Shown: positions 6,986-33,889 of the stretch, in pieces
Position numbering within the stretch: position 1 is the stretch's first letter
Layout: every line of letters starts with the position of its first letter
From: Candidatus Methylobacter oryzae
Lineage (GTDB): Bacteria > Pseudomonadota > Gammaproteobacteria > Methylococcales > Methylomonadaceae
Assembly (NCBI GenBank): GCA_945861405.1
Contig: CAMAUL010000019.1
Coordinates: 1 to 45,761 of the forward strand
Reading direction: 5' to 3'
DNA: 45,761 nucleotides
Program-made: the position numbers and the translations under genes
Notes under the pieces: model-generated
Told to the model about the DNA's origin: nothing
What the model saw: the letters and a program-made list of their open reading frames with translations, nothing else
The model's database searches: none

Positions 6986-8113
6986 GTGAACATTAAACCG
7001 AGTATCTGTTTTGTCGCACCTAAAATTTATCCAGTTCTAGCTCGTGATCGCAATATTAAAATAGTAGGCGGGGCAGAGGTGCAACAGAGCATATTGGCGC
7101 GAGCCTTTGCCGCCACTGGTTATCGTGTCACTGTGGCTTGCGAGGATGTAGGTCAGCAGGAAGCTATTGAGGTGGATCGCGTAACGGTGCATAACACCTT
7201 TCGTCCTAAGTCCGGCTTGCCGATATTGCGTTTTTTTCATCCCCACATCAGTTTAACTTGGCGTGCGTTAGCAAGAGCCGATGCGGATATTTATTACCAG
7301 CGTGGTTGTGGAATATTAACCGGCATTGTTGCGGCATTTTGCCGGGTGCACCGGAGGCGATTTGTGTTTGCGGGAGCGCATGACCAGGATTTTGATTGGA
7401 AATTGCCCAAAGTGAAAAAAATACAAGATAAATTCATATTTCGCTGGGGGATTCGAAATGCTGATGCTGTGGTAGTGCAAAATGCGCAGCAATTAGATAT
7501 GGCTGGAGCATCGGGTTTTAATCCTATTTTGATTGGCAGTTGCTATCTAAAGCCAGCTAATGCAAGTCTGTCGAGACAAGGCTATGTTTTATGGGTAGCG
7601 CGGTTTTGTTCATGGAAGCGACCGGAAATATTTATCGAATTGGCCCGTCGCCTTCCTCAATTTAATTTTCGAATGGTTGGTGGGGCAGGCTCTGAAGCGG
7701 GGGAGGCTGGTTTTTTTGAAACGATTAAACAGCAGGCAGTGAATGTGCATAATTTGGAATTTGTCGGCTTTGTGCCTCATGCTGATGTGGAGCGGGAATT
7801 TGATGGGGCTCGGATCTTTGTCAATACATCTGAAGCGGAGGGCTTTCCCAATACTTTTTTGCAGACTTGGGCCCGCAGTATACCAACTGTAAGTTTTGTA
7901 CAATCCGCTTTAGATAAAGATGGTAAATCTATTGGCAGAGCAGTACAGAATGTCGATGCACTGGCTCAGGCAGTAAGCGAACTAATGGAGGATGACGGGG
8001 TATGGCATCAGGAAGGAGAGCGTTGCCGACAGTATTTTGAGGCGCATCATTCGGTGCAGCAGTCTTTTGAAGCTTATGCCGTCCTCTTTACGCATTTAAT
8101 GGAGGGAAAATAA
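6986..8113 (+). CDS. glycosyltransferase family 4, first of two tandem paralogues
   Basis: A 375-aa GT-B enzyme starting at GTG 6986 with GGAG 11 bases upstream. The N terminus (CFVAPKIYPVL, then VGGAEVQQ) and the donor site EGFPNTFLQTWARSIPTVSF are shared with the next gene. In this motif the second acidic residue of the E-x7-E pair is replaced (FLQTWA), which is seen in a GT4 subset. Its stop overlaps the next start as TAATG at 8111-8115. Predicted to act in repeat-unit assembly; substrate unknown. Confidence 0.85.
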   Translation: MNIKPSICFVAPKIYPVLARDRNIKIVGGAEVQQSILARAFAATGYRVTVACEDVGQQEAIEVDRVTVHNTFRPKSGLPILRFFHPHISLTWRALARADADIYYQRGCGILTGIVAAFCRVHRRRFVFAGAHDQDFDWKLPKVKKIQDKFIFRWGIRNADAVVVQNAQQLDMAGASGFNPILIGSCYLKPANASLSRQGYVLWVARFCSWKRPEIFIELARRLPQFNFRMVGGAGSEAGEAGFFETIKQQAVNVHNLEFVGFVPHADVEREFDGARIFVNTSEAEGFPNTFLQTWARSIPTVSFVQSALDKDGKSIGRAVQNVDALAQAVSELMEDDGVWHQEGERCRQYFEAHHSVQQSFEAYAVLFTHLMEGK

Positions 8114-9252
8114 TGACGACTGATAAACCTCATATTTGCTTTGTGGCACCGAAAATCTATCCGGTATTACTTGGTGACAAATCAATAAAATCTGTTGGAG
8201 GGGCGGAAGTGCAGCAAGCGTTTATTGCGCGTAGATTGCACGATGCAGGCTACCGCGTTTCCGTTGCGTGCTTTGACTTTGGACAAGCGGATGATATGGA
8301 AATCGAGGGTATTCGTGTGTATAAAATCCACCAAAAAGGTCGGCGTATTCCTATCATTCGTAGTTTTCATCCGGATATGACAAGTGTTTGGGATGCTATG
8401 CGCAGGGCTGATGCAGACATCTATTTCCAGGAGTGTGCAGGTGCCCAGACAGCAGTTGCGGCTGCTTTTGCCCGCTGGAACAGGCGAAAATTTATCTATG
8501 CGGGAGCATGTGATAAAGATTTTATCCCGCATGACAAGATTGTGATAAAGCGTTGGCGGGATCGGCAGCTGTTCGGCCTGGGATTACGTTGGGCAGATGC
8601 TATTGTGGCGCAGAATCTCTGTCAGGTTGAGGCTTGCCGCCAATGGTACCGGCGCGAAGCGAATCTTATTGTTAATGGTTATTCTCCTCCACTGGAGGCT
8701 AAAGCGAATAGCAATGGCGCAATACTTTGGGTATCGATGATGCGCATTGGCAAGCGTCCGGACATAATGATTGATCTGGCTGAGCGGTTGCCCCACATTC
8801 GATTTCGTATGATCGGAGGACGCTCGACGAACGGCCTGGAAAACGAGTATTACGACTGTATCGAAGCGCGGGCTCAGACCTTATCCAATGTTGAATTCCT
8901 CGGGTTCGTGCCTTATGCAGAGGTAGAAAGATATTATGACGATGCCCGGTTGTTTGTCAGTACATCGGAGTATGAGGGCTTTCCTAACACCTTTTTACAA
9001 TGCTGGGCACGCGGAGTACCGACCGTTTCTTTTGTAGATTGCGGTGCGCGAGAAGGCGGTCATCCGGTGGGGGCGGTGGTTAACAATCTGGATGAAATGA
9101 CGGCAGTAGTTGACCGGTTTTGGCACGATGATGTTTATTTGGCAGCAGAGGGAGCGCGGGCGAAGGACTATTTTAACCGCAACCATACCCCTGAAATCGT
9201 GATCGCCAAATATTGTGAACTATTGGATCGCCTGATGGCGGAAAGGGTTTGA
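8113..9252 (+). CDS. glycosyltransferase family 4, second tandem paralogue
   Basis: A 379-aa enzyme, ATG 8113 overlapping the previous stop by one base, with GGAGGG about 7 bases upstream inside the previous gene. It aligns with its neighbour along the whole length: ICFVAPKIYPVL, VGGAEVQQ, a FHP segment near residue 88, RADADIY, and EGFPNTFLQCWARGVPTVSF. This is a tandem duplication that has diverged, so the two enzymes may add consecutive similar sugars with different linkages. It ends 4 bases before the flippase-polymerase gene. Confidence 0.86.
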   Translation: MTTDKPHICFVAPKIYPVLLGDKSIKSVGGAEVQQAFIARRLHDAGYRVSVACFDFGQADDMEIEGIRVYKIHQKGRRIPIIRSFHPDMTSVWDAMRRADADIYFQECAGAQTAVAAAFARWNRRKFIYAGACDKDFIPHDKIVIKRWRDRQLFGLGLRWADAIVAQNLCQVEACRQWYRREANLIVNGYSPPLEAKANSNGAILWVSMMRIGKRPDIMIDLAERLPHIRFRMIGGRSTNGLENEYYDCIEARAQTLSNVEFLGFVPYAEVERYYDDARLFVSTSEYEGFPNTFLQCWARGVPTVSFVDCGAREGGHPVGAVVNNLDEMTAVVDRFWHDDVYLAAEGARAKDYFNRNHTPEIVIAKYCELLDRLMAERV

Positions 9253-9256
9253 GATA

Positions 9257-12106
9257 ATGTCATTTCGCCGCGCTCTAAGATGGGGCAGTTTACAATCTCT
9301 GATTCGTATAGCGCTGAGTATGGTGAGTGTCAAAATCACTGCGGCATACCTAGGTCCATCCGGCGTGGCATTGATAGGTTATCTGTTAAATGTGCTATCT
9401 TTTATTATCGGAATTGCTGCCAATGGGTCAAATATTGCAATTATCCGATTTACAGCAGAACATCGCAGTGAACCGAATCGGATAGCACGTTTCTTCGCAT
9501 CCGGCTTGCGCTTATCGCTGGCTGTCTCATTATTACTGGCGGGGCTGCTGCTTTTGCTAGAAAGGCCACTTGCCCAATGGTTATTTAACGATGAACAATT
9601 TATCTGGGTGTTACGACTTCTTGCTTTATGTACCCCCCTGATTGTCATTGCCTCTTTATTGACCAGCTTCATTACCGGTTTGAAGGAATTTACGGTTACT
9701 TCAAAAATCACCATGGTTTCGACGTTTATAGGTTCTCTTCTATATATCGGGATGACGGTACGGTATGGCATAGGAGGTGGACTGTCAGGTGTCATTCTAA
9801 GTAGTGTATTAGTCTTTTTTGTGGCGCTGATTTGGGGTAGTTGCAAAAGATTTTTTGCTGTAAATCATTTCGTCCTGCCCGTAAATGCATATGATATTCG
9901 CCGCATCCTGAGTTTTTTTCCGCTTGCCATGGTACCTGGCATTACGATGCCTTTAGTGCTTATTTTAGTGCGGGATCATATCGCGTCTACCAATGATATG
10001 GCTGCGGCCGGTCACTGGCAAGCGGTATGGCGAGTTTCTGAGGTTTATCTAGCTGTTTTTATGTCTTCAATGTCGCTGTACTTTATGCCGCGTATTGCTG
10101 AATTACAAAATCCCCAGGAATTGGCCCGAGAAATAAGGAGAACCCTGACGGCTTTCATTGCCCTTGTGGCATCGGCTGCATTGATGATTTACCTATTGCG
10201 CGATCTCGTCGTGTATCTTTTATATACGCCTGATTTTTTGCCGATGCGTGAGCTTTTTGCTTATCAATTATTAGGCGATGTGATGCGTATGGCGGCATGG
10301 AGTCTCGGTTTTGTTTTGGTAGCTAAAGATTTTCATCGATATTATCTGGTTTTTGAAATTTTGATTCCAGCTTTGTTTTATGGAGGTACGATAATCCTTT
10401 CCCCCACTTTTGGGTCTCAAGCGGTTCCGCTAGCTTATGCTGCTGCTTACACAATTCATTTTTTATTGGCATTGTTCGCGTTACGTCGATTGATCTTACC
10501 TAGGAGATTGCCTGAAAATAGAAAATCCGGGGAATTGGACACAACATGTAGCGGCTTAAGCCTTGTAGGTAAGCTATATATTTTATTTAAAAAATTCACA
10601 TCGTTATTTTCGGACAGCCTTTTAGTGAATATGATGTTTATTGTTAAGGTGAAAATAATGGCATTGAATCAATCAACGTTTTGGAGTGGGAATTATAATG
10701 GATCGTTGATAGTCGGATTGTTTGCCATGGTAATTGGAACTGCGGTTGCAATTCTCGACAACAAATTAACCATTATTTTTTTTCTGCCAGTCATTCCGAT
10801 AATTCTGATTATGCGTGATTATCGGGTTGGGGTTGTGTTACTTGCTATTTTGTTACCTCATTCCGATGCTCCTTTTTTACCCAAGTTTACTGGATTCAAC
10901 CTTGTTGGTTATCTATCCTTGGCAGCATTGCTGTCTTTTAGTTTAAACCGAATATCCGGTAAGCACGAATTGATTTGGTTGCCCAAATGGTTGTGGTTGT
11001 TTTATCTAGTGCCCGTGTTATTAGCAGCGCTAAATGGGCTTTCCCATCTAAGCGAAATACCTAGTTATATGGTGATAACTAAAGCTTTTACTGCTGTGAC
11101 TCCAGTAAAATATATCAAAGATATGCTAGTTTATCCGCTACTGACAGTGATATGGATATGGCTATTGATGCATGCAGTGCGGGACAGCAAACGCCCCGAA
11201 TATTTTATTGGCGTCTTCGCTTTTGCTGCGGCGTTGCCTGCCGCTCTAGTTATGGGTATTGCGGCAACATACGGGCTTTCTTTGCAATCTTTAGCTAATG
11301 CCACTGTGGAATCAAGGGAATATTTGGCAATAATAGGTGTACATACTAATGAAATGGGAGTCTTTCTAGCATCAGCATTCGGTCCATTGATATTTTCTGC
11401 ACCTAATGCCCGCTCGGTGACAGGGCGCTTTGCGTTGTGGGGTGCGTTAGTAGTAGTGACGCTGGGGCTGCTGCTGACTTTTACACGAGGGGCATATGTC
11501 GCTGCATGCGTTTCACTGCTGTTTTTCTTGTTACGGGCCAAAGGCAGTAAATTGATCAAATGGTCAATATTGCTAATGATTATATCGATGTTCGCTGTAT
11601 TTGGCAGTGCATTGCTTACTAGGCTTACCGAGGGCTGGAGTGGTAATGCATCGTCGTTTTCGCGTGCTTCGGCTGTTACAGCCTCACGCACGGATATTTG
11701 GCTGGCACTTTGGCCTGACGTGGAAAAACATCCTCTTTTAGGCAATGGATTGGGATCGACTGTTTGGTCGATGGCGGCAAATCATAGTCACTATTTTAAT
11801 GTCCACCCGCATAATCTGTATTTACTTATTTTGTTGGATATGGGGTTAATTGGTTTGACTTTACTGCTGATTTTTTATTGGCGTTTTGCAAAGACATTGG
11901 CAAAAGCTGTTTCAAACGACTCAACCAATCAGCCGCCACCATTGATTAGAGTTTATTTACAGGGCGCTTATGCTGCGTTTCTTGGCTATTTGCTTGAGGC
12001 ATTTTCAAATGGTTATTACACACCGGTTACTGAAAATACACTGCTTTGGGCAAGTTTGGGTTTGGGTTTGGCTTATACGCATAAAGCTATAAGAGGTAGC
12101 TATTGA
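9257..12106 (+). CDS. fused Wzx-like flippase and Wzy/O-antigen-ligase-like membrane protein
   Basis: 949 aa of almost continuous membrane helices. Residues 1 to about 420 match the polysaccharide flippase pattern: RALRWGSLQSLIRI start, AAYLGPSGVALIGYL, and repeated helices of the MOP/MATE fold. After a polar linker (about 420-470) a second set of helices looks like an O-antigen polymerase/ligase: LTFTRGAYVAACVS near residue 740, then HPLLGNGLGS and VHPHNLYLLILLDMGLIG with the conserved histidines. One polypeptide would thus flip and polymerise (or ligate) the repeat unit. An in-frame ATG at 10658 (residue 468), preceded by AAGGTGA, could allow separate synthesis of the second half. ATG 9257 lies 4 bases after the previous stop. 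Confidence 0.8.
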   Translation: MSFRRALRWGSLQSLIRIALSMVSVKITAAYLGPSGVALIGYLLNVLSFIIGIAANGSNIAIIRFTAEHRSEPNRIARFFASGLRLSLAVSLLLAGLLLLLERPLAQWLFNDEQFIWVLRLLALCTPLIVIASLLTSFITGLKEFTVTSKITMVSTFIGSLLYIGMTVRYGIGGGLSGVILSSVLVFFVALIWGSCKRFFAVNHFVLPVNAYDIRRILSFFPLAMVPGITMPLVLILVRDHIASTNDMAAAGHWQAVWRVSEVYLAVFMSSMSLYFMPRIAELQNPQELAREIRRTLTAFIALVASAALMIYLLRDLVVYLLYTPDFLPMRELFAYQLLGDVMRMAAWSLGFVLVAKDFHRYYLVFEILIPALFYGGTIILSPTFGSQAVPLAYAAAYTIHFLLALFALRRLILPRRLPENRKSGELDTTCSGLSLVGKLYILFKKFTSLFSDSLLVNMMFIVKVKIMALNQSTFWSGNYNGSLIVGLFAMVIGTAVAILDNKLTIIFFLPVIPIILIMRDYRVGVVLLAILLPHSDAPFLPKFTGFNLVGYLSLAALLSFSLNRISGKHELIWLPKWLWLFYLVPVLLAALNGLSHLSEIPSYMVITKAFTAVTPVKYIKDMLVYPLLTVIWIWLLMHAVRDSKRPEYFIGVFAFAAALPAALVMGIAATYGLSLQSLANATVESREYLAIIGVHTNEMGVFLASAFGPLIFSAPNARSVTGRFALWGALVVVTLGLLLTFTRGAYVAACVSLLFFLLRAKGSKLIKWSILLMIISMFAVFGSALLTRLTEGWSGNASSFSRASAVTASRTDIWLALWPDVEKHPLLGNGLGSTVWSMAANHSHYFNVHPHNLYLLILLDMGLIGLTLLLIFYWRFAKTLAKAVSNDSTNQPPPLIRVYLQGAYAAFLGYLLEAFSNGYYTPVTENTLLWASLGLGLAYTHKAIRGSY

Positions 12107-12351: not shown

Positions 12352-13482
12352 ATGAATATAAGCAAAGAAAAAACACGGGGTCTTTATGTTATCAGTGGCG
12401 AGTTATTTGCCGGCGCTGAGCGCGTGCAGGACTTGCTTGCATTGCGTTTACCTGATTACGGTTACGAAGTTGGTTTTGTCTGTTTGAAGCAGGGTATGTT
12501 CCCCTCGTGCCGGGTTTCTACCGTACCGTTATTCGAGATGCCTATGAAGTCGAAGTTCGATCTAGCCCCTGCGTGGGAGATTGCGCGGATCATAAAGCGG
12601 GATGGCTATGCCTTATTACATACCCATAGCCCGCGCGCCGCCATGGTGGGACGGCTGGCGGCCTGGTTGGCTGGCGTGCCTATGGTGCATCACATACACA
12701 GCCCTGCTGCGCGAGATACGGAAAATGCTTGGGGCAATAGAATAAATTCGGTCATGGAGCGCTTGAGTCTGACCGGTATTGCGCAGCTGATAGCGGTTTC
12801 TCAAAGCCTAGATAGATACCTAAGAAAACAAGGCTGGTCACCGCAAAGGATTACCACGGTAGCCAATGGGGTTCCAATCGCCGGAACCTTGCCCTATAGA
12901 CATAGACCTGCGCCCGGTTCGGAATGGGTGATTGGTTGTGTGGCATTGTTTCGTCCGCGCAAGGGCATTGAGGTGTTGATCGAGGCATTAGCAGGGTTGC
13001 GCCAAGCGGGTCGGTTAGTGCGCCTGCGAGCCGTCGGCCCTTTTGTAACGACTGAGTATGAGTCCACTGTCAAGACTCTAGCCGCGCGCTTAGGTGTAGA
13101 TTGGGCTATCGATTGGATCGACTTTACTCAGGATGTAAATGCTGAGTTCGCCAAAATGGATGTGTTTGTCTTGCCCAGTCTTTTTGGGGAAGGTATGCCG
13201 ATGGTGATACTGGAAGCCATGGCTTCGGGGGTTCCAGTGGTAGCGTCGGATGTGGAAGGTATTTCGGAAGTGCTTGACCACGGACGCACCGGCTTGGTGG
13301 TGCCTGCTGGCGAGGTGGAAAGTCTGATTGGTGCGCTGGCCGATCTGATGGATGGCAAGTACGACTGGAACAATATGCGGGAGGATGCCTACCGGGTGCA
13401 AGTGGAGCGTTTTTCTGATCGCAGTATGGCAGAGGGAGTGGCGCGTGTATATGATGAGGTACTGGCGTATGAATACGTCTAA
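12352..13482 (+). CDS. glycosyltransferase family 4
   Basis: 376-aa GT-B enzyme. The acceptor half begins LYVISGELFAGAERVQDLL and carries the HTHSPRAAMVGRLAAWLAGV segment. The donor half has GCVALFRPRKGIEVLIEAL and EGMPMVILEAMASGVPVVAS with an intact E-x7-E pair, followed by the GRTGLVVPAG loop typical of GT4. It follows the transposase scar and a weak hairpin, so it may start a second transcript. ATG 12352 follows AGGTTCTGA with only a weak ribosome site. Sugar specificity is unknown. Confidence 0.87.
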   Translation: MNISKEKTRGLYVISGELFAGAERVQDLLALRLPDYGYEVGFVCLKQGMFPSCRVSTVPLFEMPMKSKFDLAPAWEIARIIKRDGYALLHTHSPRAAMVGRLAAWLAGVPMVHHIHSPAARDTENAWGNRINSVMERLSLTGIAQLIAVSQSLDRYLRKQGWSPQRITTVANGVPIAGTLPYRHRPAPGSEWVIGCVALFRPRKGIEVLIEALAGLRQAGRLVRLRAVGPFVTTEYESTVKTLAARLGVDWAIDWIDFTQDVNAEFAKMDVFVLPSLFGEGMPMVILEAMASGVPVVASDVEGISEVLDHGRTGLVVPAGEVESLIGALADLMDGKYDWNNMREDAYRVQVERFSDRSMAEGVARVYDEVLAYEYV

Positions 13483-13542: not shown

Positions 13543-13992
13543 ATGAAAAAAATATTAGCTGTTGCTTCAGCTGGTGGTCATTGGACTGAGATGATGCTTC
13601 TGAAAGAAATATTTGATGGGCACGATGTTGCATTTGTCTGCACAATGGAAATGTACAGATCGGAAGTGGCGCCGAACCGATTTTACGCCATTCCCGGTGT
13701 AAGCCGCTTGTACAAGCGTTCGATTGCAGTTTCGGTTGCAAAACTGTTGTTTATTCTTGTTAGGGAGAAGCCGGATGTTGTTATTACGACTGGCTCTGCT
13801 CCGGGCTTGCTTGCGATTTTTTTCAGCAAAATGTTGGGTGCGCGAACAGTTTGGATCGATAGTATCGCAAGCATAGAGCAGTTGTCCCTCTCTGGGAGAA
13901 TGGCTAAGAAATTCGCTGATTTATGGATAACCCAATGGCCCCATTTGGCTGATCCGGTTGATGGGCCTACCTATCAAGGGAGTGTCCTGTGA
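13543..13992 (+). CDS. PssD/Alg14-like glycosyltransferase subunit
   Basis: 149 aa. The start MKKILAVASAGGHWTEMMLL with its GGHxxE signature is typical of Alg14/PssD, the membrane-recruiting acceptor-binding half of a split GT28-type transferase. A hydrophobic segment (SVAKLLFILV) and the pattern VVITTGSAPGLLAIF support this. AGGAGGGA about 10 bases upstream is a strong ribosome site. Its stop overlaps the next start (GTGA at 13989-13992), so the two subunits should be made together and form one active enzyme on the inner leaflet. Confidence 0.83.
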   Translation: MKKILAVASAGGHWTEMMLLKEIFDGHDVAFVCTMEMYRSEVAPNRFYAIPGVSRLYKRSIAVSVAKLLFILVREKPDVVITTGSAPGLLAIFFSKMLGARTVWIDSIASIEQLSLSGRMAKKFADLWITQWPHLADPVDGPTYQGSVL

Positions 13993-14468
13993 AAGTGTTT
14001 GTGACAGTGGGGTCAATGTTGCCGTTCGACCGCTTGGTGTGCGCAATGGATGCTTGGGCGAAGGAGCATTCCGAGGCAGAGGTCTTTGCCCAGGTTGGCG
14101 AAACCAGCTTGTGCCCAGCGAATATGGAGTATTCCGCGATGATTAGCCCATCCGAATATCGGGATCACTTCGCCGCTTGCGATGTAGTGGTTTCGCATGT
14201 GGGAATGGGAACCATAATTACCGCATCTGAGTTTTGCAAGCCCCTTGTCATGCTGCCGCGTCGGGCTGAACTTAAAGAGCTTACCAACAACCACCAGTTT
14301 GAAACGGCCAAATGGCTGGAAGGCCGCCCAGGGATTCGTATTATCTATTCAGATGGCGAATTGGCAGAAGCAATCTCGAAAAGCATCGGATCAGACGGGG
14401 GCTCGATTGTTGAGACAGGAACCCGGGGCAAGCTGATCAATACTCTGCGTCAATTTATCTCGAACTGA
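13989..14468 (+). CDS. PssE/Alg13-like glycosyltransferase catalytic subunit
   Basis: 159 aa with a GTG start overlapping the previous stop by 4 bases. MKVFVTVGSMLPFDRLV matches the start of Alg13/PssE (usual form VTVGTxxFDRLV), and VVSHVGMGTIITASEFCKPL is the UDP-sugar-binding segment of GT28 C-terminal domains (usual form SHAGxGSIxxAL). It works only together with the Alg14-like partner encoded just before it. By analogy with PssDE it probably adds a glucuronosyl-type or GlcNAc-type residue, but the donor is not evident here. Confidence 0.84.
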   Translation: MKVFVTVGSMLPFDRLVCAMDAWAKEHSEAEVFAQVGETSLCPANMEYSAMISPSEYRDHFAACDVVVSHVGMGTIITASEFCKPLVMLPRRAELKELTNNHQFETAKWLEGRPGIRIIYSDGELAEAISKSIGSDGGSIVETGTRGKLINTLRQFISN

Positions 14469-16664: not shown

Positions 16665-17763
16665 TCATTCTTTTTCAGGGTTGATTTGTCGCTGGAGTGC
16701 CTTGCTAGGGCTTCTACCCCCACTTATCAGACTGTAGAGCTTATCAAATTTTTTTGATGTGATATGTGCAAATACAAAAACCAAAAACAGAGCTAATGGA
16801 AAGTTAAGATAAAAAGAATATGGGTTTTCAATAATTTTTTTTGTAAAATATTTAAAGTAGGATAAAGGAGTAAGGTGAAATAAATATACAAAAAATGTGA
16901 GTCCTGATGCATAAATAAGGAATTGGCTATTTTTCATAGCTGCTGATACTTGAAGGATACTTACTACACCGAATAAAATTGCAATTTTATATAGAAAAAT
17001 TGACTCTACTGTGTAATTTGTAACGTACCAAACATCTAGGTCTGGATCAAAATATATGCGCAAAGCGATAAGTCCAGCCCAAGATGTTATTATAATAATT
17101 TTTGTCGTACTTTTGCAGAAGATAACGGCGTCAATGTTTATTGCCCCCCCGAAACAACATTCCTCCAAGCCAAAAGAAAAATAGAGTTTCAATGTTTAGC
17201 AAGTACCATCCTGCAACGATAGGAAATGGCTGGATATCCATGATCCAAAAAAAGATTAACAAAATGCCAATTCCATAGAATGTCAGTTTATTCGCATTAA
17301 ATATCAGCGGTGAAACTATAACTAAAATAATTAGATCACGAAGAAACCAAAACTGCGCTGATTGTGGGTGAGCAAGTACATGAAATACGATTGAATATAA
17401 GTTGAGTTGCTGACTTTTATCCTGATTAAATATTGTGTTCAGAGAAACAGATGATAAGAATATTATTGTTGATACTGTCAAATAAGGAACTAATAATGTA
17501 TAAAATTTATTAATTAGTGTCAGTCGGTATTTATCGAAAGTAGCAACCCTTTTTATGAGAAAGTATCCTGATAACAGAGCGAAAACAGGTACTGCACTCC
17601 TTGCGAAGCCATTAAGCAAAGTTTCTTGAATAATGTAATTTAAATTATACCCAAGTGATGTATCAATGCTTCCTTTTGTGCCGTAATGGATAGCAACAAT
17701 TAAAATTGTTGCTATTAATTGAGCAATCATAAATGAACTACTAACTTCTTTTGAAATGTTCAT
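16665..17763 (-). pseudogene. acyltransferase-3 family membrane protein, frameshifted
   Basis: Two overlapping frames make up one protein of roughly 365 aa. The 5' part (ATG 17763 to stop near 17131) starts MNISKEVSSSFMIAQLIATI and contains the LNGFARSAVPVFALLSGYFL segment typical of acyltransferase-3/OafA-WecH proteins. The 3' part (about 17150 to 16665) supplies the remaining helices, including YASGLTFFVYLFHLTPLSYF. The break falls in a run of seven G residues on the coding strand (about 17144-17150); six or nine would restore one frame. Such enzymes O-acetylate polysaccharide at the inner membrane. It could be a real mutation, a phase-variable tract or a sequencing error. Confidence 0.75.
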
Positions 17764-17857
17764 ACGCAAAACTTAACCCCAATATTATTAAAGCCATAAT
17801 TAATCACGATTGAAGCCTAAAAAAACAATAAGTTAACCTATTATCAATACTTATATA

Positions 17858-18902: not shown

Positions 18903-19889
18903 TTATTTACTTCGTCCATCTACTGTGGCCACCCATTTATTTCCTATTTTATGTGGATCTACATGGTGCATACCCGCTGCATTCCATCCGATGCCCGTCT
19001 TTGTGACTATAGGTTTTTCCGATACCAATTTCTCTGTATATGATGTTTCAGATAGCTCGGTTATTTCAAAGGCAAAAACCTGAACTCCATAACTAGGATC
19101 GTCATCTTGTGTCAACCTTAATAGCTTGTCATTATATGAAATGACTCGGCCACCTGACCTTGAAAAATGCTTATTCAATTTTACTATTGGATTCTTTGGG
19201 TGAGGTTGCCACCCTTTTAATAAGTCATCTGAATAATAGAGGTTTAAAACGTTACTATTTCCAGTAGACACAAACATCCACCATTTATCTTTGTAGCGAA
19301 ATATTGAAGGATCATAATATTGATAGCCAGATAATAGATTCCCTACATATTCCCACTTTTCAGGAAACTCTGTTGCTTTATATAATCTCACCGAAAAATC
19401 TTGACCACTTTCCGGGATCAAGTAGTACGTATTGTTCCACTCGAAAACATACGGATATGACAAATGAAAATTTTCATCAATAATAACTTTCCTGTAATGC
19501 CAGTCCCTTCCATCCGCGCTCTCTGCGTAAGCAATGTCACCTTGAGCAGTTTTCCTGTTTAACGCTTCAAAAAAAATAAAAAATTTCCCCTTATTAAGTA
19601 CCATAAATGGATCTGCGACTATATCTGCGTCTATATCTATAACATCCTTTGCTGTTAGAATAGGATTAGAAATATCTTCCTTTGCATGCAAGTCAAATAA
19701 AGTAGAACCTTCATATATTCCAATAGACCAAGGAGTATTAGTTTGTTCCGGTTCTTGAGTTCTGTGAAATACGGTTTTTATTATTTCATAAGGAAATACT
19801 TGATATTTAACAATAATAATCCCATAAATTATGCACCCCACGGATACCACTGCCAACAACAAGATACAATAAACAAGATATTTCTTCAT
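18903..19889 (-). CDS. membrane-anchored GINT1-N-like beta-propeller protein
   Basis: 328 aa. One N-terminal membrane helix (about residues 4-28, YLVYCILLLAVVSVGCIIYG) is followed by a soluble region. WSIGIYEG, ADPFMVLNKGKFFIFFEALN, LSYPYVFEWNNTYYLIPESG and YYDPSIFRYKDKWWMFVSTG are blades of the five-bladed propeller found at the N terminus of plant GINT1 and in many bacterial polysaccharide clusters, related in shape to GH43 folds. A catalytic role is not established. TAAGGAGG about 7 bases before the ATG supports the start. It is AT-rich, with attC-like sequences on both sides. Confidence 0.7.
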   Translation of the reverse strand: MKKYLVYCILLLAVVSVGCIIYGIIIVKYQVFPYEIIKTVFHRTQEPEQTNTPWSIGIYEGSTLFDLHAKEDISNPILTAKDVIDIDADIVADPFMVLNKGKFFIFFEALNRKTAQGDIAYAESADGRDWHYRKVIIDENFHLSYPYVFEWNNTYYLIPESGQDFSVRLYKATEFPEKWEYVGNLLSGYQYYDPSIFRYKDKWWMFVSTGNSNVLNLYYSDDLLKGWQPHPKNPIVKLNKHFSRSGGRVISYNDKLLRLTQDDDPSYGVQVFAFEITELSETSYTEKLVSEKPIVTKTGIGWNAAGMHHVDPHKIGNKWVATVDGRSK

Positions 19890-20824: not shown

Positions 20825-20841
20825 GAGACATCGAATGTCTC
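20825..20841 (+). promoter_or_regulatory. leader hairpin upstream of the first beta-helix gene
   Basis: GAGACAT (20825-20831) and ATGTCTC (20835-20841) form a perfect 7-bp stem with a CGA loop. It lies just downstream of a TATAAA box and 36 bases before the proposed GTG start. The same element is found at 23728-23744 before the paralogue. It may protect the mRNA or control translation. Confidence 0.5.
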
Positions 20842-20876
20842 GTAAATTAATGGTCTTATGTATTAGAGGTAATATT

Positions 20877-23324
20877 GTGTATAAATCAACTAAATTGGCA
20901 GGTATGTTTTCGGCCTTACCCAGCTTTTCAGCTGTGGCCTTTAACTTCTTGCCTCAGAAACCCGGAGCAGATTTAAATTTTGACTTACAGTCCTTAGCTA
21001 TTCAAGGCGATCAGAAAACCCGATCTACGGCAAATCATTCCCCTAGGGATGCTTTTCGATTGTTTAGTAGCCTGAAAAGCATCACCTACAAATTATTTTT
21101 TATTGCCTGTATTCAAGGTCTGCTAGGGCTTCAACAAGCTTATGCGGGGACTTATTATGTTTCTCCCTCCGGTAGCGATACCAATGGCGGCACATCACTT
21201 ACAGCGCCTGTAAGGACTATAAACAACGCGTTGCGCAAGGCTTCGCTTAGTGGTGATATTGTGTATGTAAGGACGGGGACTTATGTGGAAACCGTTTCTA
21301 TTCAGCAAAGCGGCATTACGCTGAGTGCTTATCCAGGCGATAAGCCGGTTATTGACGGTCAAACTACCTTGCCTGGAGATTGGGGTTCTCTAATTTTTGT
21401 AGCAGGCAATTACAACACCGTTTCCGGTTTTGAAGTCAAAAATAGTAATATTAATGGCGTCCGTTTAGGTGGCTATAGTGTGGTGGTAACAGGTCATCAT
21501 AATACCATCAGTAAGATAAATGCGCACCATGCATGGGAATCTGGGGTGAGAATTCAAGGCGATTATAATATTGTCGAAGATTCTTTGGTATGGCAATCAG
21601 TACTCAGTAATTCTCATAACAATGGTAGTGTTGCGGGAGGATGGGGCGCTGGACTTAGCGCGGCTAGAAATTACAGTGCTTCAGCTTTAATACCAGGCAT
21701 CACCTCTTATCCTATTTTGCGGCGCAATAAGGTTTTTAACAATTGGGGGGAAGGTGTAATCTGCTTCGAGGCAGATCATTGTACGCTGGAAGATAATATT
21801 GTTTACGATAATTGGACGGTTAACTTATATCTTTCCGATGCCACCAATAGCTTGGTGCAACGCAACATAGTTTATGTTTCTTCAGCACCTGCCATACCCA
21901 CTCGAAGCGGTTCACATCCGGGGTTTTTTCTGTCTGATGAGAAGGCATCAGTTCCCCGCTCTAAGAACAATACAATTATCAATAATTCTGTCTACAACGC
22001 TAATTTCGAGGCTTTTACTTGGTCGGGGGTTGCTAATGCTGGATTGAACAATGTACTAATAGCTAACAATACCATCGTTGAAGGCAGCTTGTATGTAGGA
22101 TCTGGCGGAAGCAGTGCCATAGTTAACACAAATTCCCAAATTAGAAACAATATTATTTTAGGAACAAACAGCTCTGTTCCCAGTAAGACCGGCATTACTT
22201 TTTCTAATAATAATTGGGCTAGGACACCTTCAGTAGCGGCAACGGTAACCGACATAGTTGGAGATCCGCAGATAGCAAGAACGGGGGCAACGACGCCCGG
22301 CAGTTTGACGGCCTCTTATTTCAAAATATTGGAAAGTTCACCGGTGATAGATGCTGCAACGCCGCTAAGTAACGTGGCTGAAGATTTTTTTCGGTCTATT
22401 CGTGGAACGGTACCCGATATAGGTGGACATGAGTTCAGTTCAAATACGGTTGATTCTATAGCACCCTCAGCTCCCTCTGGTTTTAGCGCTACAACCAACT
22501 CTTCTACTAAAATCACTCTTGTCTGGAGCGCTTCATCTGACAATGTGGGGGTTACCGGTTATAGAATCTATAGAAACAGTATCGAGATTGGCACGAGTGC
22601 TGTAACCAGTTTTACAGATAATTCTGTTACTGGAGGGGCAACCTATAGCTATACGATCAAGGCCTACGATGCAGCCGGTAATCTTTCTGCTTCAAGTAGT
22701 ACAGCAACGGTTACGACACCATTGGCGGCGACGGTAAAAATAACCTCCTACTCTGCGGGTAGTGTTACTTCCACCGGCGCCAAGATAAACTGGACTACTG
22801 ATATACCTTCTACCGGTGTAGTTTCATACGGAACCAGCACTAATAACCTTGGCTCTAAAGTTAGTGCCAGCACTTCGGCTACGAGTAATTCAGTAGCAAT
22901 TACTGGGCTGTCCAGCAACACTAAATATTACTATCAGATTAGTGTCAACAGTGGATCCGCTACTGCTTTATCTACTATTTCAAGCTTTATAACGCCCCTT
23001 TCCGTTTCAGGCACCTGCACCCAAATTGCTCTAAATGTTTCTGGCGCATGGAGTGATGGTGGCTATAGTTGGATGCTTAGCTATAAATTTGGGATGCCCG
23101 CAGACAACAACAATTTCAGTAAACAATCTACTCTGCGTTTGTTTGAGAATGGCTTGGAAATCAGACCTGCGCACTCTCTCCATGCTGATATTAGAACGAT
23201 GGGCGCAGGAAGGTTCAGTCATTGGAGCCAGACGAATGGAACGGGAGAGTCAATTCGCTTTTCTGCTTCAGACAATACTAATCCACAAACCAACGGAAAG
23301 AAGTACAGCTATTGTGTAAAATAG
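20877..23324 (+). CDS. secreted right-handed beta-helix protein with FN3-like domains
   Basis: About 815 aa from GTG 20877, chosen because AGAGGT lies 6-7 bases upstream and because sequence before it differs from the paralogue by indels. A same-frame ATG at 20835 is the alternative. After a long N-terminal stretch, a signal-type helix (KLFFIACIQGLLGLQQAYA, about residues 72-90) is followed by GTYYVSPSGSDTNGGTS, a DUF1565-type start. A parallel beta-helix with many NN/VxxN turns follows, then a choice-of-anchor-Q-like segment SSPVIDAATP...DIGGHE. Two FN3-like domains (about 530-710) lead to a ~100-aa C-terminal domain bounded by CTQIAL and YSYCVK. It may be a lyase, epimerase or binding protein for the polysaccharide; no catalytic residues could be assigned. 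Confidence 0.8.
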   Translation: MYKSTKLAGMFSALPSFSAVAFNFLPQKPGADLNFDLQSLAIQGDQKTRSTANHSPRDAFRLFSSLKSITYKLFFIACIQGLLGLQQAYAGTYYVSPSGSDTNGGTSLTAPVRTINNALRKASLSGDIVYVRTGTYVETVSIQQSGITLSAYPGDKPVIDGQTTLPGDWGSLIFVAGNYNTVSGFEVKNSNINGVRLGGYSVVVTGHHNTISKINAHHAWESGVRIQGDYNIVEDSLVWQSVLSNSHNNGSVAGGWGAGLSAARNYSASALIPGITSYPILRRNKVFNNWGEGVICFEADHCTLEDNIVYDNWTVNLYLSDATNSLVQRNIVYVSSAPAIPTRSGSHPGFFLSDEKASVPRSKNNTIINNSVYNANFEAFTWSGVANAGLNNVLIANNTIVEGSLYVGSGGSSAIVNTNSQIRNNIILGTNSSVPSKTGITFSNNNWARTPSVAATVTDIVGDPQIARTGATTPGSLTASYFKILESSPVIDAATPLSNVAEDFFRSIRGTVPDIGGHEFSSNTVDSIAPSAPSGFSATTNSSTKITLVWSASSDNVGVTGYRIYRNSIEIGTSAVTSFTDNSVTGGATYSYTIKAYDAAGNLSASSSTATVTTPLAATVKITSYSAGSVTSTGAKINWTTDIPSTGVVSYGTSTNNLGSKVSASTSATSNSVAITGLSSNTKYYYQISVNSGSATALSTISSFITPLSVSGTCTQIALNVSGAWSDGGYSWMLSYKFGMPADNNNFSKQSTLRLFENGLEIRPAHSLHADIRTMGAGRFSHWSQTNGTGESIRFSASDNTNPQTNGKKYSYCVK

Positions 23325-23376
23325 TCGGGTAATCGCGTTTTAATTATCCCATGGATGCGAAGGAGCGCGTGAACTC

Positions 23377-23414
23377 CCACCCTCTCCCCCTTTGGAAAAT
23401 TGGGGGGAGGGTGG
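23377..23414 (+). terminator. GC-rich hairpin after the first beta-helix gene
   Basis: CCACCCTCTCCCCC (23377-23390) pairs with GGGGGGAGGGTGG (23402-23414), leaving one bulged T and an 11-base loop. The stem is very stable. The downstream sequence is TTATATATC rather than a clean T run, so termination is likely but not certain. Confidence 0.55.
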
Positions 23415-23727
23415 TTATATATCAAAGTTGCTTAGGCTATTTTATTTACGTTCCTAAGTAAATAATCATTGTCAAAAACGCTGTTAGCTAACAAACGTAA
23501 CATTGCAGATACGGACGTGAGCGACCGTCAGCAACAATAGTGATCCTATTTTCACTAAGCGTTTTTTGCTCATCTAATACCTCTGAAGTAAAAATTTTTA
23601 TTTAAGAATTTATTAATCTCCCATCGATACACTTCAAGCGGGTTTTTAGAAATCCTTTCGCATGGAAATGGGAGTAACTTCACGAGTTTAGTTATTTTCT
23701 ATATATAATTCAGTGTGATATAAAATA
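23415..23727. other. intergenic stretch with the promoter of the second beta-helix gene
   Basis: No gene seen. The 3' end (about 23700-23727) repeats the promoter of the first paralogue: ATAATTCAGTGTGATATAAAAT here against ATAATTCAATGTTATATAAAAA there, compared piecewise, with TATAAA as the common -10-like box. The rest is AT-rich without recognisable structure. Confidence 0.4.
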
Positions 23728-23744
23728 GAGACATCGAGTGTCTT
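23728..23744 (+). promoter_or_regulatory. leader hairpin upstream of the second beta-helix gene
   Basis: GAGACA (23728-23733) and TGTCTT (23739-23744) form a 6-bp stem, one pair being G-T, around TCGAG. It corresponds to the hairpin at 20825-20841 and lies 32 bases before the proposed GTG start. Confidence 0.45.
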
Positions 23745-23776
23745 GTGAATTAATGGTTATGATTAGAGGTAATATT

Positions 23777-25696
23777 GTGTATAAATCAACTAAATTAGCA
23801 TGTTTTTTTGGGGGCTTACCCAGCTTTTTAGAAGCGGCCCCTGGTGCGTCCAAAAAACCAAGATCAGACATGAATATCTTAAATCTGGACTTACAATCCT
23901 TGGGTATTCGAGGCAATCAGAAAATTCGATCCACTGTAAGTAATTTTCCTAGGGTAGTCTTCCCTCGTTTATTAAGTGGCATGAAAAATACGACTTGCAA
24001 ATTGTTTTTTCTTGCTTTTCTTCAAATTCTACTAGGATTTCAACAAGCTAATGCAACCACTTATTATGTTTCAACTTCCGGTAATGATGCTAATAGCGGC
24101 ACCTCACTTACAGCGCCTGTAAGGACTATAAACAAGGCGTTGAGTAAGGCTTCGCTTAGTGGTGATATTGTGTATGTAAGGACGGGGACTTATGTGGAAA
24201 CCGTTTCTATTCAGCAAAGCGGCATTACGCTGAGTGCTTATCCAGGCGATAAGCCGGTTGTTGACGGTCAAACCACTTTGCCCAACAAAGACTGGGGGGC
24301 TCTAGTTTTTGTATCAGGCAATAACAACACTGTTTCCGGTTTTGAAGTCAAAAATAGTAATATTAATGGCATCCGTTTAGGTGGCTATAGTGTGGTAGTA
24401 ACAGGTCATCATAATACCATCAGTAAGATAAATGCGCACCATGCATGGGAATCAGGGGTGAGGGTTCAGGGTGATTATAATATTGTTGAAGATTCTTTGA
24501 TGTGGCAAACAGTGGTCAAAAATTCATATAACAATGGTAGTGTTACAGGAGGGTGGGGTGCTGGACTTAGCGCGGCTAGAAATTACAATGCTTCAGCCTT
24601 AATACCAGGCATCACCTCTTATCCTATTTTGCGGCGCAATAAGGTTTTTAACAATTGGGGAGAAGGTGTAATCTGCTTCGAGGCAGATCATTGTACGCTG
24701 GAAGATAATATTGTTTACGATAATTGGACGGTTAACTTATATCTTTCTGATGCCACCAATAGCTTGGTGCAACGCAACATAGTTTATGTTTCTTCAGCAC
24801 CTGCCATACCCACTCGAAATAATTCACGTCCGGGTGTTTTTCTGGCTGATGAAAAAGCAACAGTTCCCCGCTCTACCAAAAATACAATTATCAATAATTT
24901 TGTCTACAATGCTAATTTTGAGGCTTTTACTTGGTCGGGGGTTGCTAATGCTGGATTGAACAATGTACTAATAGCCAACAATACCATCGTTGATGGTGGC
25001 TTGTTTATAGGGTCTGGCGGAAGCAATGCCATAGTTCATAAAAACTCCCAAATTAGAAATAATATTATTTTTGGGAAGAATAGTTCTGTACTAACTAATA
25101 GCGGCATTACCTTTTCCAATAATAATTGGGCTAGGACATCTTCATTAGCGGCAACGGTAACCGACATAGTTGGAGATCCGCAGATAGCAAGAACGGGAAC
25201 AACGACGCCCGGCACGTTGACATCCTCTTATTTCAAAATATTGGAAAGCTCACCAGTGATAGATGCTGCAACGCCGATAAATAACGTGACTAAGGACTTC
25301 TTTCAAGTTGCCCGGGGAACGACACCCGATATAGGTGGGCATGAGTTAAGTTCGAATGCTATTTCATCTCCTTCTACTCCAGCCAACTGCACTCAAATTG
25401 CTATCAATGTTTCTGGTGCGGTGAGCGATGGCGGCTATAGTAAGATGCTCGGCTATACATTTGGAACCCCCGCAGACAACAAAAATTTCAATACACAATC
25501 TACTCTTCGTTTGTTTGAGAATGGTTGGGAAATGGGGCCTGAGCACTCTTCCCATGCTGATATTAGAAACATGGGTGCTGGAAGATTCAGTCATTGGAGC
25601 CAAGTCGATGGAACAGGAGAATCAATTCGCTTTTCTGCTTCAGACAATACAAATCCTCTAACCAATGGAAAGAAATATAGTTATTGTTTAAAATAA
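23777..25696 (+). CDS. secreted right-handed beta-helix protein, shorter paralogue
   Basis: About 639 aa from GTG 23777, with AGAGGT 6-7 bases upstream as in the first paralogue; an in-frame GTG at 23738 is the alternative. The signal-type helix KLFFLAFLQILLGFQQANA precedes TTYYVSTSGNDANSGTS. Long stretches of the helix core are nearly identical to the first gene (for example SKINAHHAWESGVR and NWGEGVICFEADHCTLEDNI), showing recent duplication or conversion. The two FN3-like domains are missing: DIGGHELSSNAISSPSTPA runs directly into the shared C-terminal domain (CTQIAIN to YSYCLK). Likely an exported protein acting on or binding the same polysaccharide. Confidence 0.8.
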   Translation: MYKSTKLACFFGGLPSFLEAAPGASKKPRSDMNILNLDLQSLGIRGNQKIRSTVSNFPRVVFPRLLSGMKNTTCKLFFLAFLQILLGFQQANATTYYVSTSGNDANSGTSLTAPVRTINKALSKASLSGDIVYVRTGTYVETVSIQQSGITLSAYPGDKPVVDGQTTLPNKDWGALVFVSGNNNTVSGFEVKNSNINGIRLGGYSVVVTGHHNTISKINAHHAWESGVRVQGDYNIVEDSLMWQTVVKNSYNNGSVTGGWGAGLSAARNYNASALIPGITSYPILRRNKVFNNWGEGVICFEADHCTLEDNIVYDNWTVNLYLSDATNSLVQRNIVYVSSAPAIPTRNNSRPGVFLADEKATVPRSTKNTIINNFVYNANFEAFTWSGVANAGLNNVLIANNTIVDGGLFIGSGGSNAIVHKNSQIRNNIIFGKNSSVLTNSGITFSNNNWARTSSLAATVTDIVGDPQIARTGTTTPGTLTSSYFKILESSPVIDAATPINNVTKDFFQVARGTTPDIGGHELSSNAISSPSTPANCTQIAINVSGAVSDGGYSKMLGYTFGTPADNKNFNTQSTLRLFENGWEMGPEHSSHADIRNMGAGRFSHWSQVDGTGESIRFSASDNTNPLTNGKKYSYCLK

Positions 25697-30399: not shown

Positions 30400-32022
30400 T
30401 CAATATTTAAACACAATATTGGCATGAATGCGGTTGTTGCCTGCCTTGGTAGTTCCTGCCTCAGCAGTATCCAACGCCGTGGCAAAGGCGATATTGCCCA
30501 TGAAATATTCGCGCCATTGATAACGCGCACCAAATCCCGTACCACTCAGGTTCCAGTCCTTGACTTGCCCTGCTGTTGTGCTTTGCAGGCGACCGTGACC
30601 ATAATCGTAAAAAGCAAACAGATTGACTTTTTGCCCTTCGATTGCGGCTAAGGCAGGCAAAGTGGGCGAAGTGACTTCAAATTTTACAATCTGACCGCTA
30701 TCAGCCCCGGTTTCGCGTTGATCGTAGCCTCTGACATCGAAGCTGCCGCCTATGCCGAGCTGCTCTCCGGCTATCAGCGGGCCGTGGCTCTGCTGACCGG
30801 TAAGAGTGGTTTGTAATAGCCAGTCTTTTACATTGACCGAAAAATTGCTGCCAAAGCGTAACAAATCCCAGTTTTGCTTGGCATTAAGGCGGGCCGCCTG
30901 GTAATGTGTCTGGGTATTGTGTCCGCCGAAGTCGGTATTGCCTACCCACTGCACATAGTAGCCGGTATGGGTGTTTTGCCAGGGATACTCGCCTTTATAT
31001 AGCACACTGAACGGTGCACTACGGACATTGGCGCCTAGCTGGATATTTTGAAATTGAATATCATTGATGAAATAGCGATTATCAATGCCCAAATCCAGGC
31101 TATGCTCGTACTTGCCCAATTTGGGTAAAAACTGCTGATAATGGATGCCGTACATTTCACCCGCTCCGGTCACCGTCAAATCGGTTGCCACCGTACCCAC
31201 ATTAACCGAGGAATTGGCGTAATAAGCGCTCAACCAGCCTTTGAGCCGATAGATAGGCAAGCTATAGCTGGCACCGTATTGTTTAACGGTATCGGCGTGA
31301 TCAGGGGAGGTCGAGTAACTGCCGTTGACGATATGATCCATTCCCCACAAATTGCTGTATTGCAATGCGCCGGTCAACCGGTAATCACCCGAACTGACCG
31401 TGCCGTAATTATTGGCAGTTAAAGAAGCCTGATAGGGGCGGCGTTCGTTTACTGCAACATTGGCATCTAATTTATCAGGCGTTTTACTGGGTTTAAAGGT
31501 GACTTGTACCTGTTTTGAGGGATGTTTATTGGCGACTTTAATCGCTTCGGCCAAATCCTGAGTATTGGGCGATTCAGGCTTTTTAAGGACAGGTAAGCTG
31601 GCGATGATGTTGTTCTTGGCAAAGTACTTATTACCGGTCACTTCGATTTCACCTAAGGTAAAGGAGACAATTTGCAGTTTTATATCGCCGGTAGTCAGCG
31701 TTTGCGGCGGCACGATAACCCGATAAAACGGGTAGCCCTGTTCGCTGATAATCGATTCAAGCGCCTTGCTGACCTCTTGCAGTTCTTTAAGTGAGTAAGA
31801 TTTGTTTTGCAGCGGTTTAAAATGCGCGTCAATGAACGGTTGGGACAGCGGCGACAAACCCTCAACCGAAAAATGCGTAATGTTAAACTTGAATTCCGCT
31901 GGTGCCGCAGCCAGACAAGATGCCGGAGGAGTTAGGCATAAACCAGCCGTGATTAAGGCTGATCTGATATAGCGGGCAGTAACCCAATGAATTTTGCTAT
32001 CTATTTTTTGTTGTTTTTTCAT
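30400..32022 (-). CDS. TpsB outer-membrane transporter (ShlB/FhaC/HecB family)
   Basis: 540 aa. After a signal peptide ending near SCLAAAP come POTRA domains (FNITHFSVEGLSPLSQPFID, then LGEIEVTGNKYF, about residues 45-200) and a beta-barrel with alternating strands. GGSFDVRGYDQRE contains the conserved VRGY motif of barrel strand loop L6, and the protein ends in a phenylalanine-containing strand (IVFKY), as outer-membrane proteins do. It should export the TpsA adhesin encoded upstream in the same orientation. The C-terminal end lies next to the nadE relic. Confidence 0.88.
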   Translation of the reverse strand: MKKQQKIDSKIHWVTARYIRSALITAGLCLTPPASCLAAAPAEFKFNITHFSVEGLSPLSQPFIDAHFKPLQNKSYSLKELQEVSKALESIISEQGYPFYRVIVPPQTLTTGDIKLQIVSFTLGEIEVTGNKYFAKNNIIASLPVLKKPESPNTQDLAEAIKVANKHPSKQVQVTFKPSKTPDKLDANVAVNERRPYQASLTANNYGTVSSGDYRLTGALQYSNLWGMDHIVNGSYSTSPDHADTVKQYGASYSLPIYRLKGWLSAYYANSSVNVGTVATDLTVTGAGEMYGIHYQQFLPKLGKYEHSLDLGIDNRYFINDIQFQNIQLGANVRSAPFSVLYKGEYPWQNTHTGYYVQWVGNTDFGGHNTQTHYQAARLNAKQNWDLLRFGSNFSVNVKDWLLQTTLTGQQSHGPLIAGEQLGIGGSFDVRGYDQRETGADSGQIVKFEVTSPTLPALAAIEGQKVNLFAFYDYGHGRLQSTTAGQVKDWNLSGTGFGARYQWREYFMGNIAFATALDTAEAGTTKAGNNRIHANIVFKY

Positions 32023-32063
32023 GAGTTTTTTGGTTCTGTAGTTGGATTATTTCCAGCGTTAAT

Positions 32064-32456
32064 CTACTTGGAAACTTTGCAGTGCAACGTTTCTACAGGT
32101 ACAACTTGCAGTTTTATATCGCCGCTAGCCAGTGTTTGCGGCGGCACTATAACCTGATAGAACGGAAATCCCTGCTCGTGAATTACCCGCTCAAGGGCCT
32201 TGCTGACATTCTGTAGTTCTTTAAGCGTATAGGATTTGTTTTGTAGCGGTCTAAAATAGTCGTCAATAAACGTTTGAGAAAGCTGCGACAAACCATCAAG
32301 TGAAAAATGCGTAACGTTGAACTTGAATTCCTGAGGTGCAGCAGCCAGACAAGATGCCTGCGGAATGAGGCATAAGCTGGCCGCAATTAAGATTGATCTG
32401 ACTAAACGGGCATTAAATCGATGATTTTTTTTAGCCATTTTTTGTTGTTTTTGCAT
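32064..32456 (-). pseudogene. truncated TpsB copy (signal peptide and first POTRA only)
   Basis: About 130 aa. It repeats the beginning of the full transporter next to it: MQKQQKMAKKNHRFNARLVR against MKKQQKIDSKIHWVTARYIR, then FKFNVTHFSLDGLSQLSQTF and PFYQVIVPPQTLASGDIKLQ. Similarity stops at LQ(V/I)V, and ten unrelated residues and a stop follow. ATG 32456 matches the start of the full copy. It is a partial tandem duplication and probably inactive, though a secreted soluble POTRA fragment cannot be excluded. Confidence 0.75.
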
Positions 32457-32536
32457 GATTTTTTCACATAGTCCGCAGATAGCTGAATTTGCCATTGTTA
32501 TTGCGTAGAAGCATTGCTCCGCAGTTTAAGTTTACA

Positions 32537-33856
32537 TTAACAACCGTCATCACCAGTATCGGAGGTATTGCCACCAATGCCGGATGTATCATTACCAGAT
32601 GGACTTTTATCAGAGTTTGTTATTTTTTCGCCATCGGAGTTTTTACCTTCCTCTACTGTTTTGGTGTTTTTACCATCGTTAGACTCAACGGTAGTCTTTC
32701 CACTGATCGATTTAACATCTGTATCACCTTTGGTTTTAGTGGGTTCTTTAGTCACGTCCTTAGGATTAGTCTTATCCGTCTTCGGATCGCGACCCGTGAC
32801 CCTATTGAGGTCAATCTGTGTTGATTTAGCAAGATTACCGTCGCTGTCCAAGGTGAATCCCGCCGGTACCGAGGTTATGTTTCCTTGTTCGTCGGTCGAA
32901 GTTAGTTCTCCTTCCGTGGTAGTAAGAGTGCCGTTTGATTCGGCATCTCCCGCCGAGCCTCTTATGCCGATAGTGGCAACCGGGGTTTTCAGGGCAAAAG
33001 CGTCATGATCGTTTTTACCGATACTGCCGGTTAGCATGCGCATGCCGCCGGCTGCTAAACGCAATAAAACCTGATCTTTTTTATCTTTAATGTTGTAGAT
33101 GTATTTTTTAATTTCCATTTCACTGTCGGCACTCAGAGTGACTTTTTGACCATCAGGAAATACCACCAGTGCGTAACTCTCCTTTTCACTGTATAGGATG
33201 TCGGAGTTATATAAGGGCTTGCCTACCGACAGCGGGCGATTTTTTGCGTCTTTGTCGACCATCTTTTTTGCGAATACTTCGCCTTTAATGTCAACCACGC
33301 GCGCCACTATGCTTTCCTCGGTTCTTTCCTTTTTGTCGGCGACTTCTTGCGCACTCTTTGCACAAGCTTCGTCACAAATTTGTATAGCAAACTCTGCTTT
33401 TTCAGAACCGGGTTTAACCGTGTCAGTAGGTGTTTTTATTTGGAAGCGTTGAGGGTCACCCTTGGCAATATCACCGGTACTGGCTTGAACGCCGCCTTCA
33501 TGTAACACTAACTGTGCGGTTTTGTTGGCTGATTGGTTGTCATAGTGATCGATACTAAAGTTACTGTCCGGACGCACGGTTACCTTAGCACCGTCGATAA
33601 ATTCGATAATCACAAAACTGCGTTCGGTGGTCTGGATATTGTCGCCCTGAAAAATCTCTGTACCGGTACCGAGGATTCGCGGCGCGGCTCCCGGTAACTG
33701 GGCGGCATTACTGCCTTTTACAAAGCTGATATGGCCGACGACTTGAGGTGCCGCATAAGCGGGCAGGGTAACCATTAATCCTATTGTCAGACTCAGGACA
33801 GGTAAGCACAGCCGTAAGCCATAATGTTTAATAATCTTAGCTAATCGAATAGACAT
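32537..33856 (-). CDS. periplasmic protein with two FecR domains
   Basis: 439 aa. A signal peptide (LCLPVLSLTIGLMVTLPAYA) is followed by a FecR domain (about residues 40-150: GHISFVKGSNA, VTVRPDSNFSID, FQIKTPTDTVKPG) and a second one (about 190-310: DIKGEVFAKK, VTLSADSEMEIK, FALKTPVATIGIRGS). The last 100 residues are low-complexity, rich in T, K, D, S and N, and end in a single cysteine (GDDGC). Here it sits between TpsA and TpsB, 33 bases after TpsA, so it probably works in secretion, anchoring or sensing of the adhesin rather than in iron uptake. No sigma factor is nearby. Confidence 0.82.
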   Translation of the reverse strand: MSIRLAKIIKHYGLRLCLPVLSLTIGLMVTLPAYAAPQVVGHISFVKGSNAAQLPGAAPRILGTGTEIFQGDNIQTTERSFVIIEFIDGAKVTVRPDSNFSIDHYDNQSANKTAQLVLHEGGVQASTGDIAKGDPQRFQIKTPTDTVKPGSEKAEFAIQICDEACAKSAQEVADKKERTEESIVARVVDIKGEVFAKKMVDKDAKNRPLSVGKPLYNSDILYSEKESYALVVFPDGQKVTLSADSEMEIKKYIYNIKDKKDQVLLRLAAGGMRMLTGSIGKNDHDAFALKTPVATIGIRGSAGDAESNGTLTTTEGELTSTDEQGNITSVPAGFTLDSDGNLAKSTQIDLNRVTGRDPKTDKTNPKDVTKEPTKTKGDTDVKSISGKTTVESNDGKNTKTVEEGKNSDGEKITNSDKSPSGNDTSGIGGNTSDTGDDGC

Positions 33857-33889
33857 GGTGGTTATAGTAAGAAGGAGATTAATGGATTA

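Follow-up and report, generated by a model that had tools for sequence, protein, structure and literature searches.

The window analysed, i.e., the whole stretch of 45,761 nucleotides, is a contig (CAMAUL010000019.1) from an assembly of Candidatus Methylobacter oryzae of 3.58 Mb in 154 contigs, which is 93.6% complete and 1.7% contaminated. It contains a polysaccharide cluster with genes for a UDP-sugar dehydrogenase, an epimerase, an asparagine-synthase-like protein, GT4 glycosyltransferases and a PssD/PssE-like pair (Table 1); several of the cluster's genes adjoin or overlap one another, at 6983/6986, 8113/8113, 9252/9257 and 13992/13989. Within this cluster, positions 9257–12106 of the forward strand form a single ATG-started frame of 949 amino acids without an internal stop. 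This open frame does exist in the assembled sequence, and the reading frame at the junction of its two halves is known from one assembly; programmed frameshifting was dropped as an explanation, since the window sequence already reads through without interruption. The same genome holds two Wzz-domain genes, both on other contigs, and in total four matches to PF13440, five to PF01943 and three to Wzy_C.

Table 1. Features of the fused frame and of its neighbours (positions refer to the window).
Feature	Position	Strand	Basis
GT4-type glycosyltransferase, conserved neighbour upstream	6986..8113	+	
GT4-type glycosyltransferase, conserved neighbour upstream	8113..9252	+	
Wzx (MOP) flippase core, codons 1-415, 12 hydrophobic segments	9257..10501	+	PF13440/PF01943, PDB 9g95 alignment, hydropathy
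Linker, codons 416-467, putative positional homologue of relatives' wzx-wzy spacer / wzx tail	10502..10657	+	core-to-ATG distances, frame openness
Shine-Dalgarno-like AAGGTGA ahead of internal ATG	10646..10652	+	pairing energy -4.8
Wzy_C protein (polymerase or ligase), 482 aa from own ATG	10658..12106	+	PF04932; G012 wzy alignment
GT4-type glycosyltransferase downstream	12352..13482	+	
PssD/PssE-like (Alg14 / GT28 C-terminal) glycosyltransferase pair, two ORFs, 4-nt overlap	13543..14468	+	

Several other features of the window were observed. On the reverse strand, an Acyl_transf_3 (PF01757) gene (16665–17769) occupies two ORFs that differ in frame and meet beside a run of seven G, the second piece scoring below the Pfam cut-off; this may reflect phase variation of the acyltransferase or an indel error. 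A two-partner secretion locus on the same strand (30400–37390) consists of a TPS-domain protein (33890–37390), a FecR-domain gene (32537–33856) and a ShlB-type transporter (30400–32022), together with a separate ORF of 143 amino acids (32064–32495), which has its own POTRA_2 domain. At 18903–19889, also on the reverse strand, a protein matches GINT1_N (glucosamine inositolphosphorylceramide transferase 1, N-terminal), which takes its name from a plant enzyme. Two large beta-helix proteins lie in tandem at 20835–25696 on the forward strand, the first of which has also fn3 and purple-acid-phosphatase N-terminal type domains.

When scanned alone, the first half of the 949-residue protein matched PF13440 at residues 35–330 with 34.7 bits (cut-off 23) and PF01943 at 15–283 with 30.6 bits (cut-off 28.2). 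A simple hydropathy scan gave 12 hydrophobic segments within residues 15–408, which is within the expected 12 (to 14) helices. Among solved structures, this half has its relative in WzxE, the flippase of lipid III (PDB 9g95, with five more entries), and residues 2–407 of the window protein align with chain residues 3–408. Passages of PMC11706664 describe WzxE as a protein of 12 helices with both termini in the cytoplasm and with a C-terminal arginine cluster, R413-415, which is vital for activity. Like WzxE with its 12 helices, the window protein has 12 predicted hydrophobic segments; the arginines just past the last of these, RR at 410–411 and 416–417, lie just beyond the aligned region and may correspond to the WzxE cluster. 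However, against the WzxE equivalog model (NCBIfam PRK15099) it scored 205.3 bits, below the cut-off of 325; judged by this profile score, the first half is therefore a relative of WzxE and not WzxE itself. A further difference is that the window flippase carries a C-terminal protein.

The second half alone gave 62.5 bits with Wzy_C (PF04932; cut-off 31.7), spanning the whole model at residues 730–871 of the whole protein. Proteins of the Wzy/WaaL family have 10–14 helices with large periplasmic loops, according to passages of the review PMC12004945; for the window protein, hydropathy indicated 11 segments after residue 468 and a loop of 65 residues at 789–853. A profile search found no solved relative of this half. 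Polymerase and ligase are not told apart by the family match here, and only the adjacency to wzx speaks for a putative Wzy rather than a WaaL. In close relatives the protein is free, whereas it is fused in the window. The original prediction of one gene with a Wzx half and a Wzy/WaaL half is thus borne out by the 949-residue frame, each half of which scores above its Pfam cut-offs.

In a Methylobacter MAG, i.e., from the same genus as the window (contig JANYKK010000195.1, here G012), flippase and polymerase are encoded by neighbouring genes of 465 and 480 amino acids, respectively, which overlap by 10 nt. In a genome of another family (G066), wzx and wzy are separate and 127 nt apart, if the earliest start codon in the frame is taken. 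The order glycosyltransferase–glycosyltransferase–wzx–wzy is common to the window, G012 and G066; the halves are homologous, but they are two genes in the relatives and one in the window. A profile of the polymerase half, built from three polymerases and run at 1e-20 on 311 genomes of the order, matched the own genome, G012, G066 and, more weakly, G222 and G116, where the distant matches lie in frames of 516 and 414 amino acids; in none of these four other genomes was a fused homologue found. With the whole protein as query (61 genomes), both halves were matched besides the own genome only in G012, where they are split, and with the polymerase half over its length (23 genomes of the genus) again only G012 was found besides the own genome. 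Among 398 genomes of the phylum a match was obtained in the own genome only, where the fused protein matched only itself, and of 113 matching plasmid records none had one place covering 80% of the query.

Family surveys, which among the matches listed covered frames of at least 700 amino acids and two of about 620, gave the same picture. No Wzx-Wzy protein was present in the PF13440 survey (287 of 301 genomes with a match) among four listed frames of at least 700 and two of about 620 amino acids, nor in the PF04932 surveys (101 of 111 and 105 of 110 genomes with a match) among five listed non-window frames of at least 700 amino acids; the PF04932 frames of G375 and G386 appear to be long GC-rich frames without a partner. 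The PF01943 survey (85 of 110 genomes with a match) listed five non-window frames of at least 700 amino acids, of which those in G397 and G373 were no Wzx-Wzy proteins, and those in G389 and G326 (lengthened by masked N runs) and in G353 were left out. Among the open-access journal papers listed, titles and the starts of abstracts contained no Wzx-Wzy fusion, and the Wzy review PMC12004945 uses the words "fused" and "fusion" a single time each, in either case of PhoA/LacZ reporter constructs. Neither the genome searches nor the literature surveyed yielded another single-chain flippase-polymerase. By these searches, for which the whole protein, either half and Wzy profiles served as queries, the fusion is a singleton, and no fused homologue in another genome was found by which a conserved Wzx-Wzy fusion family could be recognised. 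The coupled flip-and-polymerise protein proposed earlier finds no support as a conserved type, since both close homologues are split, an outcome named beforehand as speaking against it. The suggestion of a recent fusion of two genes fared better, being what the comparison with the relatives shows.

Counted from one equivalent residue that closes the Wzx core, the ATG of wzy lies 162 nt away in the window, 149 nt in G012 and 145 nt in G066. Because these lengths match, the linker is, as far as can be judged from the comparison, the former spacer between the genes plus the tail of the upstream gene, and not a dedicated domain. A dedicated linker domain was rejected, the linker having no Pfam match and little similarity to G012. 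In both Methylobacter genomes the linker is an open wzx tail reaching VKI at the wzy ATG, which is in register with wzy only in the window and not in G012. Over 68 codons around the linker the coding frame has no stops, and the other two frames hold 8 and 7, which makes an accidentally open non-coding linker unlikely. Hydropathy gave in addition a borderline hydrophobic segment within the linker, at residues 450–468; on an insertion scale its score of 2.17 is not poorer than those of three segments taken as helices (2.25, 2.5 and 4.93). If this segment spanned the membrane, it would invert the Wzy half.

The in-frame ATG at 10658 and the AAGGTGA upstream of it were both located as originally described (Table 1). 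This ATG is the homologue of the wzy start of G012, the alignment running from residue 1 with MALxQSxF. A Shine-Dalgarno-like site precedes wzy in both Methylobacter genomes, with anti-Shine-Dalgarno pairing energies of -4.8 in the window, which equals that of wzx's own start, and of -6.8 in G012. The internal start signal is nevertheless ordinary and not unusually strong, since ten of the cluster's ORFs contain 102 other internal ATGs in frame, of which 8 equal or beat its pairing energy.

The flippase part is considerably more divergent from G012 than its surroundings. Over 9386–10585 the nucleotide identity is 0.525–0.613 in windows of 150 nt, whereas most flanking windows of this size have 0.73–0.87; three flanking ones are also low (0.62, 0.627 and 0.651), and two of these immediately precede wzx. 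Protein identities are 56% for the Wzx core and 72–77% for Wzy and the glycosyltransferases. Synonymous divergence (dS) is saturated and not estimable for wzx, compared with 0.61 for wzy and 0.82–0.86 for the two upstream glycosyltransferase genes. Since the drop in identity and the saturation are confined largely to wzx, this gene appears as a divergent island, which suggests an allele exchange that ended close to the junction. In view of the low flanking windows and the high dN of wzx (0.38 against G012), fast evolution of this gene could be the explanation instead of an exchange.

Fusions of MOP or Wzy_C genes do occur, since other partners were found; a second Wzx-Wzy was not among the frames surveyed. 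In a genome of the same bacterial family (G024, locus L022 on G024:C69, from 2788, forward strand) Wzy_C (O-antigen ligase family) is in one frame of 994 amino acids with an MsbA-like ABC exporter (PF00664 and PF00005); these are likewise two envelope membrane proteins in one frame, but the partner is an ABC exporter and not a MOP flippase. A MOP flippase fused to FG-GAP and UnbV/ASPIC repeats, with 1153 amino acids in each of two genomes (L018:3105–6566, forward; L019:1740–5201, reverse), is apparently a conserved flippase fusion. Other MOP flippases continue into a long C-terminal half that matches no Pfam model (L016:677–3343, reverse strand, 888 amino acids) or into a GNAT-type Acetyltransf_6 domain (L053:2473–5142, forward strand, 889 amino acids). 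By eye, glycosyltransferase-like sequence is the partner after a Wzy_C frame in L023 (G403:C41) and before a Wzy-like protein in L026 (G373:C1). Three distant Wzx relatives of 576–581 amino acids (L003, L004, L033) were seen by eye to have a common C-terminal extension ending hydrophobic.

With moderate confidence we consider the locus to be an ordinary wzx-wzy pair of a Wzx/Wzy-type polysaccharide cluster in a methanotroph of the Methylobacter group, the frames of which pair were joined in this one lineage; the join is probably a recent one-off (or a sequence error) and not a new kind of machine. An indel error in the assembly, with wzx and wzy truly separate and overlapping as in G012 and fused only in the consensus, is possible, if rather unlikely. 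The fusion is a singleton, for which sequencing error, recent indels, adjacent gene pairs and orphan recoding are listed as sources in passages of PMC3711429 on predicted frameshift genes; the distance from core to ATG is 13 nt off that in G012, a difference of 1 mod 3; and the switch of frame in the acyltransferase gene on the same contig, beside its 7-G run, indicates that frame-changing indels, true or false, occur here. On the other hand, all six other ORFs matched in G012 (6/6) align gap-free, the junction has no long homopolymer and the wzx tail is open throughout.

A true join without benefit appears quite improbable; the fused product would be inactive or degraded, Wzy would be made from the ATG at 10658, and another flippase would cover for the loss or the cluster would be decaying. 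Partial redundancy could be provided by the further family matches in the genome, and the possible extra membrane segment at 450–468 would fit, but both halves are full-length and keep their family profiles, and wzy has a dN/dS of about 0.28 against G012 (0.171/0.611), although such an average cannot date the fusion. Most improbable seems a dedicated, selected fusion which channels repeat units from flippase to polymerase: its topology would be compatible, and MOP and Wzy_C proteins tolerate other fusion partners elsewhere, but no conserved fusion was found and the linker is apparently a former spacer.

For the joined ordinary pair, the following course may be envisaged. The edge of the exchanged wzx allele would probably lie near the junction; the wzx frame would have shifted into register with wzy, and the wzx tail would then read into wzy. 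Translation from 9257 should yield a Wzx-Wzy protein of 949 amino acids (105 kDa), and initiation at 10658 should still give a free Wzy of 482 amino acids (53 kDa). Because the ATG at 10658 is homologous to the wzy start of G012, the likeliest output would be fused Wzx-Wzy plus free Wzy, with little or no free Wzx. The N-terminus of Wzy from P. aeruginosa is cytoplasmic, and the 12 segments up to residue 408 with the arginine pairs following them would suit a cytoplasmic N-terminus of the Wzy half; 12 flippase helices with a cytoplasmic C-terminus would thus be joined to it, although the segment at 450–468 could spoil the topology of the fused protein. The first half would flip the lipid-linked repeat unit, and the second half, or free Wzy, would polymerise it in the periplasm, with no new chemistry. 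A more elaborate version, in which a single-chain flippase-polymerase originated from a change of frame in an overlapping pair after allele exchange of wzx, is made together with free polymerase, and the ratio of fused to free protein sets the coupling of flipping and polymerisation, must be regarded as doubtful.

As judged from the sequence comparisons, the locus would represent a known gene pair in a form specific to this lineage, and would be of modest interest if left unconfirmed. If the join were due to an indel error, it would illustrate that, where just one assembly is considered, overlapping genes for envelope proteins may be mistaken for a new bifunctional protein. The three loci form a small series, from a spacer (G066) to an overlap (G012) to the fusion in the window. 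If real, the fusion would be a natural tethered Wzx-Wzy pair, which could provide a simple test of the side-by-side working of flippase and polymerase.
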